In this document: piece by piece, positions 37,135 through 39,623 of the stretch
Numbering within the stretch: the stretch's first letter is position 1
How the letters are laid out: the number at the start of each line of letters is the position of its first letter
Source of the DNA: Dyadobacter sp. 676
GTDB lineage: Bacteria > Bacteroidota > Bacteroidia > Cytophagales > Spirosomataceae
NCBI RefSeq assembly: GCF_040448675.1
Contig: NZ_CP159289.1
Span: 3,765,001 to 3,829,000 of the forward strand
Reading direction: 5' to 3'
DNA length: 64,000 bases
Made by a program: the position numbers and the translations under genes
The notes under the pieces: generated by a model
What the model was told of the DNA's origin: nothing
The model's database searches: none
Seen by the model: the letters and a program-made list of their open reading frames with translations, nothing else

Positions 37135-37921
37135 ATGGCTGAGAATACCGAACCTACACCAGAAGAAGCGAAAGAATCGCTGGAAAATAAAGTTGAAGAG
37201 CTCAAAACCACTGCAACCGTATCCACGGGGGCCGATGCCAAAGACGAGATCGTGGAAGAAGTGCTGGAAATCAAGGATGAGGCGAAGGAGGTTGTGAAAG
37301 AAGAAGCTGCCGCGCTTGAAACGAAGGCGGAGGACAAAGCGAAGGAGGCGGCAGAGGCCGCCGACGGCATTAAAACCGAAGTTTACGAAACGCTGGACGA
37401 CCTGAAAGCGCAAGCGGAGACCAAAACCACGGAAGTAGAGGAGGTAATCAGCGAGAAAGCGGAGGCCGCTAAAAGAGGCAGTTGGCGAAGCCAAAGAGGC
37501 GGTAGCCGCCAAAGCGCAGACGGCGAAAGAAGAAGTAGCTGCAAAAGCAGAAGAAGTACAGTCGGGTTTCGCAGCGAAGCTGGCGGGAATCCGGGACGCC
37601 GCTACCGACAAGCTGGACGATCTCAAGGAAGCGGCCACCGACAAGTTTGCTGATATAAAAGAAGCTGCGGCGGGCAAATTTGAAGATATCAAAGAGGCCG
37701 CTACCGATAAATTCGAAGACATCAGGGAAGATGCTGCCGAAGCATACGCGGACGCCAGGGAAGCCGCGGCAGAGAAACTGGCCGAAGCGCAGGCCAAGGC
37801 TGCGGAGCTCAAAGCGAAAGCCGCCGAAGAAATAGCGGAACTGAAAGAGGAAACATCGGAAAAGGTTGTCGAGACGAAAACGAAGGCCAAGGGCTTCTGG
37901 GCACGCCTCTTTGGAAGATAA
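37135..37921 (+). pseudogene. long Ala/Glu/Lys helical repeat protein (LEA/apolipoprotein-like), frameshifted
   Basis: Reading through the A4 run at 37471-37474 as A3 joins two frames into a 261-residue protein. It is almost wholly amphipathic helix. The second half has tandem ~11-residue units (AATDKLDDLKE, AATDKFADIKE, AAAGKFEDIKE, AATDKFEDIRE), and the end KAKGFWARLFGR is basic and aromatic like a membrane or protein docking tail. The first half is acidic and richer in Val/Glu. It resembles LEA_4/apolipoprotein-A-like proteins linked to desiccation or membrane association; that role is a guess. The current sequence breaks it after ~112 codons. Confidence 0.78.
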
Positions 37922-37973: not shown

Positions 37974-39623
37974 ATGTCACAACAAACTTTCTCTCTTCCC
38001 TACCAGCATCCATTTACGGCGGATAAAAAATACCAGAAATCAGTTGCCTATTTTTCTATGGAGTTCGCCATTGATCAGGCTTTAAAGATCTATTCCGGCG
38101 GACTGGGCTTTCTCGCAGGCTCGCATATGCGGAGCGTATACGCGCTCAAACAGAACCTGATCGGCATCGGAGTGCTGTGGAAATACGGCTATTACGATCA
38201 GGGCCGGAAAAAGGACGGCAGCATGCAGCCAGAGTTCCGGGAGAAAATGTATTCTTATCTGATCGACACTCAAATCCGTTTCCAGATACCGCTCATGGGA
38301 AAGGACGTATGGGTAGCCGCCTATTACCTCGATCCGGAAACATTCGGCTCGGCCCCGTTATTCCTCCTGACTACGGACACGGACGGTAACGACGAATCGA
38401 CGCGGGCGATCAGCTATTCGTTATACGACGCCGACGTGACTTATAAAGTAGCGCAATGCATGGTGCTGGGCATCGGCGGAGCCCGGTTGCTGGAAGCGCT
38501 GCAATATGAGCCGAACGTCTATCATTTGAATGAAGCACATGCGGTTTCGGCGGTTTTTCATTTGTATAATCAATATAAAAGTGCTGCTGAGGTCCGGAAG
38601 AGGGTGGTTTTTACAACCCATACCCCCGAAGAAGCCGGTAACGAAAAACACGACATTCATTTTCTGGAAAAACTCGGGTTCTTCTCGGGCATCGATCTGG
38701 AAACGGTGCGGAAGCTCAGCGGCATCCGCGACGGCGTTTTCAACCATTCGCTTGCAGCATTGAATTTGAGTCGAAAGGCAAATGGGGTGTCGAAACTGCA
38801 CGGCGAAGTTTCGAGAAAAATGTGGAAGGCATATCCCGGGATCGCGCCGATCGGGCACATCACCAATGCACAGAATAATGCTTACTGGGTAGATCCGGCA
38901 CTGGAAAAAGCAAGGCTGGCCGGTGATGTCGATGCGATAGCGGCACGAAAGAAGGAACTGAAAAGAGTTTTATTCAAAACAGTCGCCGACCAGAGCGGGA
39001 AGCTTTTCGACCCCGACGTATTGACGATCGTCTGGGCACGGCGATTTGCGGCTTACAAGCGGCCGGATATGCTCGTATGGGACATAGAGCGGTTTAAGCG
39101 GATCATGGGAAACAAAAACCAGCCGGTGCAGATTATCTGGGCCGGAAAGCCTTATCCGAAAGATGAGGGGGCCGTCGGGACGTTTAACCATTTGTTTTAT
39201 CTCAGCCATCTTTTTCCCAATATGGCAGTATTGACGGGCTATGAACTGGCGCTTTCGAAAATGCTGAAAGACGGCGCGGACGTGTGGCTCAATACCCCCG
39301 TAGTTACACGCGAGGCGTCGGGGACCAGCGGGATGACAGCCGCTATGAATGCCGCCCTGAACCTGTCGACCTTCGATGGCTGGATCTGCGAATTCGCGAG
39401 GGACGGGCATAATGCATTTCTGTTGCCGGTTGCCAAAGGGGAGGGTATTAACAAACAGGACTGCGATAACCTGATGGAAACGCTGGAACGCACCGTCATT
39501 CCGACCTACTACAATGCGCCACAGAAATGGCGGCAGATGATTTTGAATAGTATGAATGACGTTTCGGAACCATTCAACTCGGACCGGATGGCGAGGGAAT
39601 ATTATGAGTTATTGTATAATTAA
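37974..39623 (+). CDS. short alpha-glucan phosphorylase (GT35) homologue lacking the PLP lysine
   Basis: 549 residues from ATG 37974 (MSQQTFSLPYQHPF), much shorter than ~800-residue glycogen phosphorylases but like the short alpha-glucan phosphorylase branch. Conserved blocks: VAYFSMEFAID, YSGGLGFLAGSH, VYHLNEAHAVSAV, VFTTHTPEEAGNEKH, RRFAAYKRPDML (phosphate-binding Lys-Arg) and TREASGTSGMTAAMNAAL. In active GT35 enzymes the last block reads EASGTxxMK with the PLP-binding Lys; here Thr455 replaces it. So PLP-dependent phosphorolysis of glucan is doubtful, while the fold and sugar-site residues remain. No other glycogen gene is adjacent. Confidence 0.85.
   Translation: MSQQTFSLPYQHPFTADKKYQKSVAYFSMEFAIDQALKIYSGGLGFLAGSHMRSVYALKQNLIGIGVLWKYGYYDQGRKKDGSMQPEFREKMYSYLIDTQIRFQIPLMGKDVWVAAYYLDPETFGSAPLFLLTTDTDGNDESTRAISYSLYDADVTYKVAQCMVLGIGGARLLEALQYEPNVYHLNEAHAVSAVFHLYNQYKSAAEVRKRVVFTTHTPEEAGNEKHDIHFLEKLGFFSGIDLETVRKLSGIRDGVFNHSLAALNLSRKANGVSKLHGEVSRKMWKAYPGIAPIGHITNAQNNAYWVDPALEKARLAGDVDAIAARKKELKRVLFKTVADQSGKLFDPDVLTIVWARRFAAYKRPDMLVWDIERFKRIMGNKNQPVQIIWAGKPYPKDEGAVGTFNHLFYLSHLFPNMAVLTGYELALSKMLKDGADVWLNTPVVTREASGTSGMTAAMNAALNLSTFDGWICEFARDGHNAFLLPVAKGEGINKQDCDNLMETLERTVIPTYYNAPQKWRQMILNSMNDVSEPFNSDRMAREYYELLYN

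Follow-up and report, generated by a model that had tools for sequence, protein, structure and literature searches.

The protein described here, from the soil bacterium Dyadobacter, is to judge from its sequence a member of family GT35 by descent, and the residue that defines a PLP-dependent phosphorylase (EC 2.4.1.1), the lysine that binds PLP, reads in it as threonine (Thr455). That this substitution is real, and that it marks a clade of bacterial proteins, we regard as nearly certain. What, then, does such a protein do? It and its relatives probably handle glycogen by a different chemistry, and we incline to see in them a PLP-free branch of GT35 that abandoned its cofactor once, that is the sole GT35 in many bacteria and whose emptied pocket takes free phosphate or a nucleotide. 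Among the open-licence papers that our literature searches listed, we recognised none on a GT35 clade without the PLP lysine.

The gene lies in a window of 64,000 nucleotides (the whole stretch of DNA that was analysed), and the features on which the argument turns are listed below; "Lys type," "Thr type" and so on refer to the residue at the position of the cofactor lysine.

37974..39623, + strand: GT35-family protein without the PLP lysine, 549 aa, ATG start (TIGR02094, 421 bits; 119 other listed homologues of 521-576 aa)
38619..38627, + strand: HTP, residues 216-218; H216 is invariant in both types and in GlgP/MalP rows (alignment)
38862..38876, + strand: TNAQN loop, residues 297-301; Q300 is invariant in the clade (alignment)
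39039..39062, + strand: RRFAAYKR, residues 356-363; R357, Y361 and K362 are invariant in Thr and Lys types (alignment)
39237..39245, + strand: GYE, residues 422-424; mostly [DN]YD in Lys types (alignment)
39312..39350, + strand: the EASGTSGMTAAMN block, residues 447-459, with E447 at the position of the conserved Glu, T451 at E447+4 and T455 at E447+8 (sequence and alignment)
39336..39338, + strand: ACA codon for Thr455, which stands where MalP has its PLP lysine, K646 (alignment and codon reading)

A clade of GT35 proteins with threonine at the cofactor position

Family membership is plain enough: the NCBIfam HMM TIGR02094 ("alpha-glucan family phosphorylase") gives the 549-aa protein 421.1 bits against a cut-off of 191.7, and Pfam's PF00343 gives 62.7 bits against 27, with residues 321-474 as its best stretch. 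TIGR02095, the HMM of GT5 glycogen synthase, reaches only 43.1 bits against a cut-off of 328.45, and in fold comparison the GT-B fold of the protein's model lies closest to GT35 structures. A search of the Dyadobacter genome, a single contig of 7.28 Mb, with the TIGR02094 profile, which gives matches in control genomes including E. coli and B. subtilis, found no further GT35. The same strand of the window also holds, at 37135-37920, a gene for an Ala/Glu/Lys-rich repeat protein, whose 172-aa open reading frame ends at 37653 and whose repeat continues in another frame to about 37920; this repeat gene looks frameshifted or misread.

When 424 GT35 sequences (exact duplicates removed) are aligned with MAFFT, residue 455 falls on K646 of E. 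coli MalP, which a passage of PMC11046441 gives as the PLP lysine. The codon at 39336-39338 is ACA, as the original prediction had read it. Only a single base separates ACA from AAA, and a sequencing error or a local mutation is the natural objection; we have rejected it, and leave it next to no probability, because threonine is found in all 119 other listed homologues and threonine or serine at all 80 loci of a scan of named genomes. By its own terms the prediction would have been refuted had homologues above 70% identity all carried lysine; every one of the 120 listed (query included, 74-100% identity, the named ones being Dyadobacter, D. fermentans among them) reads GTSGMT. Among the fetched loci, which overlap so that the counts are not independent, the threonine codons are ACG (56), ACA (38), ACT (36) and ACC (34).

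It had also been suggested, from the one sequence, that the GTSGMTAAMN version of the motif recurs in Cytophagales and makes up a coherent subfamily, not a local mutation. The first suggestion was right but too modest, the records coming from at least four phyla, and the second is borne out by a single clade in which all 254 rows (more than 480 aligned columns each) have Thr (231), Ser (22) or Ala (1). The 168 other GT35 rows (more than 430 columns; E. coli MalP and GlgP left out, further GlgP/MalP-type rows included) have Lys in 167 cases and Asn in one, although neither set of rows is a census, since a single list of 120 homologues supplied much of each.

A maximum-likelihood tree of 47 rows, built with column 455 excluded (glgP itself is absent, being more than 90% identical to another row), supports the clade at 100/100 and makes the short Lys-type proteins from Rubricoccus and Rhodothermales its sister, with support of 100/99. 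When GlgP/MalP-type enzymes serve as outgroup, the Lys types surround the clade paraphyletically, and of 200 bootstrap trees 0% gather them all on one side; the root needs caution, since the outgroup branch is long (2.53 either side of it). Because the clade is so firmly supported and sits nested among Lys-bearing relatives, the lysine was probably lost once, and a single loss is the simplest account, since every row outside the clade bar the one Asn has lysine. The branch leading to the clade, at 1.09 changes per column, is long, which suggests rapid change around the loss. Outside the clade, one long-type GT35 (a single sequence, locus L200 in Pseudomonadota genome G580) has GTSGMN, in which Asn takes the place of the PLP lysine; the lysine may have been lost here a second time, independently, or the sequence may be in error.

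How widely does the clade extend? The best 80 matches in genomes of named species, found with a profile built from 22 Thr/Ser types plus a single Lys type and thus indicating spread, not frequency, comprise 71 Thr and nine Ser types. They come from Bacteroidota (for example Larkinella, Algoriphagus, Chryseobacterium, Mucilaginibacter and Pontibacter), Verrucomicrobiota (including Akkermansia and Prosthecobacter), Campylobacterota (for example Sulfuricurvum, Sulfurimonas and Sulfurovum) and also Halopseudomonas; a few records labelled Beijerinckiaceae and Sphingomonadales may be binning errors. An even sample of 296 Bacteroidota genomes yielded 36 matches at E<=1e-100, of which 35 have Thr or Ser, the single Lys belonging to a short relative from a different class (the protein of genome G334, which matches Rubricoccus marinus).

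Plasmids carry both types: in the 11 records that we sampled to widen the Lys set (from 25 listed, out of 327 with a match), Thr occurs in Pontibacter actiniarum and Runella rosea and Lys in the nine others, from several phyla. On the Runella rosea plasmid (L279, 7956-10091), the GT35 gene without the lysine is followed on the same strand by a gene of the pyridoxamine 5'-phosphate oxidase family. On plasmids of Pontibacter and Methylophaga (L278, L281), a DUF1622 gene adjoins short GT35 genes of both types, and on two further plasmids a GT35 gene lies near a phosphoglucomutase gene (L280) or a phosphoketolase gene (L284). The Leptolyngbya Lys-type row reads KASGTSGMK.

What the active site keeps and what it changes

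The prediction had held that the rest of the active site is retained, and so it is: HLNEAH (184-189) and RRFAAYKRP (356-364) are present, and the catalytic residues do not vary. Across 52 Thr-type rows less than 75% identical and 47 Lys-type TIGR02094 rows, 47 columns are invariant in both types, G42, G43, H216, N298, R357, Y361, K362, E447 and T451 among them; the roles of the remaining active-site residues (E, R, K, H, N and Y) we take to be those assigned from known phosphorylase structures. K362 aligns with MalP K540, and R356, an arginine in almost every row whichever the type, with MalP K534; a passage of PMC11046441 counts both MalP residues among the lysines that hold the PLP phosphate.

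The two types are also separated by 22 strict switch columns. Given as the clade residue with the Lys-type residue in brackets, these include S50 (D), R53 (K), Q300 (V/I), V353 (G), W354 (F), P393 (A/S), Y394 (H), E424 (mostly D), S428 (G/A) and K432 (mostly T/V). Lysine is fixed in the clade at positions 326 and 432, where the Lys types lack it. The loop that reads TNAQN in Dyadobacter is mostly TNG[VI]H in Lys types and TNGIT in E. coli MalP. G422 occurs in 98% of the clade and in 13% of Lys types, and the pair G422-Y423 recurs as GY in 11 of 13 GT5 synthase rows examined (two of the 13 being duplicates). From these 22 columns, Q300 among them, and from the different GYE, we suspect that the substrate or the donor may have changed. 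The switch columns show no enrichment in a hand-compiled list of 19 PLP-shell positions, of which two (424 and 428) are among them (P=0.17).

Synthesis, phosphorolysis, or neither?

Some evidence on function comes from the company that the gene keeps. Near the Dyadobacter gene there is little of it: BLAST over the surrounding 31.65 kb, with glg/mal proteins of E. coli and reference proteins from Campylobacterota for comparison, found no glycogen gene besides the gene itself. Elsewhere in the genome, at 581504-582919, 592010-593683, 3181510-3183282 and 5351669-5353528, lie a GT3 glycogen synthase (which carries EPWGYTPLE), two branching enzymes that pass the cut-off and, within a frame of 1413 aa, a GH77 domain; no GT5 GlgA passes the cut-off, and GlgC gives no match at E<=1e-60. 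Neighbours in the first 101 stretches that we compared, mostly from Bacteroidota, largely reflect lineage synteny, and of the 18 recurrent neighbour clusters examined, one is sugar related by eye, a GH13 amylase in 14 of the 101.

The Campylobacterota are more talkative. Nineteen stretches among L251-L270 hold the gene, and 16 of these have pgm, pgi, glgA, glgB or a nucleotidyltransferase/PGM gene within 13-20 kb. The order in L251-L254 is Lys-type GT35, pgm, pgi, Ser type, nucleotidyltransferase/PGM, GH57; in L257 it is glgA, glgA, glgB, Thr type; and in L258 it is glgA, kinase, glgA, glgB, pgi, clade gene (Ala), pgm. Over all 121 stretches (of which L055 and L269 hold a Lys type only), the counts, some of them weak matches, are 19 for nucleotidyltransferase/PGM, 10 for pgm, eight for pgi, six for glgA and five for glgB. 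One Campylobacterota glycogen gene cluster (L260, 4951-7569) holds a GH57 fused to a GalT-like uridylyltransferase domain, and genes at other loci match this fusion protein, many of them perhaps in one part only.

The 34 clade genomes first tested hold no Lys-type GT35 at all, by an HMM that also gives matches in E. coli and B. subtilis; three hold two copies from the clade. GlgA is over cut-off in 20 of the 34 and a GT3 synthase is present in eight others (the Dyadobacter genome included), and a phosphorylase role would complete the pathway in these. GlgB is over cut-off in 26, and GlgA in 20 of 21 further Campylobacterota genomes. These facts also bear on the possibility that the protein is catalytically dead, a glycogen-binding or regulatory relative: the cofactor residue that defines the family is gone, and some Campylobacterota carry the protein beside the Lys-bearing enzyme, but E447, H216, R357, K362, Y361, N298 and T451 are invariant over the 52 clade rows less than 75% identical, and the clade is the sole kind of GT35 in 34 of 34 genomes. 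With catalytic and phosphate-binding residues so fixed, a dead enzyme is improbable, and the purely glucan-binding protein that had been proposed is likewise unlikely, since the catalytic residues do not vary. We find it easier to believe, from the sequences, in a working enzyme without PLP than in the contrary.

Our preferred, and tentative, reading is that the clade would consist of retaining alpha-1,4-glucan phosphorylases that work without PLP in the turnover of glycogen or maltodextrin. Glucose at the non-reducing end would be held by H216, N298 and E447, inorganic phosphate by R356, R357 and K362 together with T451, and attack would come on the same face, with the proton supplied by phosphate itself, a mechanism put forward in a review for the phosphorylases of GT4 and GT35; the emptied site of the PLP phosphate could hold another phosphate or some other anion. 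We infer these residue roles, the absence of PLP, phosphate as the acceptor and glucose 1-phosphate as the product. What favours free phosphate is that the clade is the sole GT35 kind in 34 genomes, beside a glycogen synthase in 28 of them, that the gene lies near pgm in several Campylobacterota and that retaining GT-B phosphorolysis also occurs in the GT4 trehalose phosphorylases, according to the relevant part of PMC8950772, which names GT4 and GT35 as families that carry it out.

Several observations count against a phosphorylase. Six of the 34 genomes have neither GlgA over cut-off nor GT3, and eight have no GlgB over cut-off; three of the 19 Campylobacterota stretches (L263, L266 and L268) have none of the five context genes. 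The switch columns, the altered TN loop and the different GYE speak against it as well. Lys types and members of the clade also co-occur in Campylobacterota, in four cases in one apparent operon, and this suggests a different job. Among 150 Campylobacterota genomes the clade is present in 19, the Lys type in 10 and both in eight (Fisher P=6e-7, co-occurrence above expectation; a match with an internal stop in G656 was left unclassed). Among 119 genomes of Bacteroidia, the two types occur in 12 and 10, with none shared, which is no more than chance would give (P=0.33; G031, with a match at only E=1e-3, was left unclassed). We considered that the Thr type had simply replaced the Lys type, and dropped the idea, because the non-overlap in Bacteroidia is insignificant and the types co-occur in Campylobacterota.

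The main rival, which we think rather unlikely, is a glucan synthase dependent on NDP-glucose, with a nucleotide again in the emptied PLP site. On a proposal made in the review PMC11046441, proto-GT35 depended on NDP-sugars and PLP came to stand where a nucleoside monophosphate had been; the emptied site could therefore take a nucleotide again, or free phosphate. The spacing of residues recalls the EX7E motif, T451 being E447+4 and T455 E447+8: in PglH, as a passage of PMC5792488 has it, E275 binds the ribose hydroxyls while R191, K196 and T271 bind the pyrophosphate, and in WsaF the second Glu binds deoxyribose O3, the motif being found in GT3, GT4 and GT20 (from part of PMC3898925). A GT5-like GY pair in place of [DN]Y, with G422 divided between the types as given above, points the same way, as does the nucleotidyltransferase/PGM gene in 19 of 121 stretches, although two of those matches are weak ones in Bacteroidota and L269 has only the Lys type. 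Against the synthase, E447 is present but the second Glu of EX7E is unrestored, position +8 being Thr, Ser or Ala throughout the clade; the clade does not consistently score above a Lys-bearing relative with the GlgA HMM; structural Z does not separate glycogen synthase from the phosphorylases, 9l6i excepted; and a GT5 or GT3 synthase is already present in 28 of the 34 genomes first tested and in all 19 Campylobacterota clade genomes.

Might the protein be a PLP enzyme still, with PLP held non-covalently or through another lysine? Only the 5'-phosphate of PLP is catalytic, so that a Schiff base is not strictly required, and phosphorylase does remain active once its Schiff base has been reduced by borohydride, which speaks for this reading. 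So do the residues on the phosphate side, which are kept, and the two lysines K326 and K432, peculiar to the clade; it is the PLP phosphate that phosphorylase uses in catalysis, as stated in a portion of PMC9081730. We nonetheless give this reading a small chance: long fixation of Thr, Ser or Ala across phyla would be unexpected were PLP needed, and, as weaker evidence, the model sets K326 within helix 319-341 and K432 close to where helix 425-434 reaches its C-terminus. A phosphate-independent 4-alpha-glucanotransferase, or a glucan hydrolase, on the GT35 fold we hold to be just as doubtful as a dead enzyme. The absence of GH77 at E<=1e-15 from 30 of 53 genomes, 19 of 20 Campylobacterota among them (the 53rd genome, G334, has the Lys type), leaves room for such an activity, but GH77 is present in 22 of 52 clade genomes, and the phosphate-binding residues are invariant.

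If a PLP-free branch exists, whether phosphate or a nucleotide fills its pocket, its history would invert the origin proposed for phosphorylases, the substitution of PLP for a nucleotide. With a natural clade that lacks the PLP lysine, expression of one protein would directly test whether PLP takes the place of a nucleotide in GT35. There is a more practical consequence as well: the names that databases give the clade proteins, "alpha-glucan family phosphorylase" and glgP, are being applied, in Bacteroidota at least and probably clade-wide, to proteins without the residue that defines the chemistry.

Comparison with known systems

One might imagine that loss of the cofactor had drawn the fold, or the sequence, toward glycogen synthase. 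The structural Z of the Thr-type model is 32.1 to E. coli glycogen synthase and 31-32 to phosphorylases other than 9l6i, a tie; a control Lys-type model gives 31.7 to glycogen synthase and 32.4 to phosphorylases. Differences from MalP thus fall in the tie range for model and control alike, and we rejected a shift of fold. Greater similarity to the GlgA HMM was rejected too, as there is no consistent difference between types: the Dyadobacter protein scores 43.1 bits, four of five other clade members 36-49 and the fifth gives no match, and a Lys type scores 41.2. GT5 glycogen synthase itself (E. coli GlgA, PDB 2qzs) is a nucleotide-sugar enzyme, and the 43 bits of our protein stand far below the cut-off of 328.

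The nearest relatives outside the clade are the short Lys-type GT35 proteins of Rubricoccus and Rhodothermales (about 545 aa), which resemble the clade in length and Pfam domain and are 39% identical to the Dyadobacter protein; they differ in having Lys in all 120 listed sequences, query included, and, as Lys types generally do, D50, H301, G353, F354 and H394, residues that in the clade are S, N, V, W and Y. The glycogen phosphorylase of Segatella copri (PDB 9l6i), by contrast, is of the long TIGR02094 type, an 852-aa chain with Lys in EASGTSGEKAEMNG, and is 32% identical over the structural alignment. GT4 trehalose phosphorylases are not known to need PLP. They are retaining GT-B phosphorylases (in part of PMC8950772) of another family with another substrate, and the parallel that they offer is one of mechanism only. 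E. coli MalP and GlgP have in common with the Dyadobacter protein the GT35 fold and the aligned E, R, K, H, N and Y residues; they differ from it in their length of about 800 residues, in sequence (20-22% identity) and in the PLP that MalP carries at K646 (a passage of PMC11046441), where Dyadobacter has threonine.
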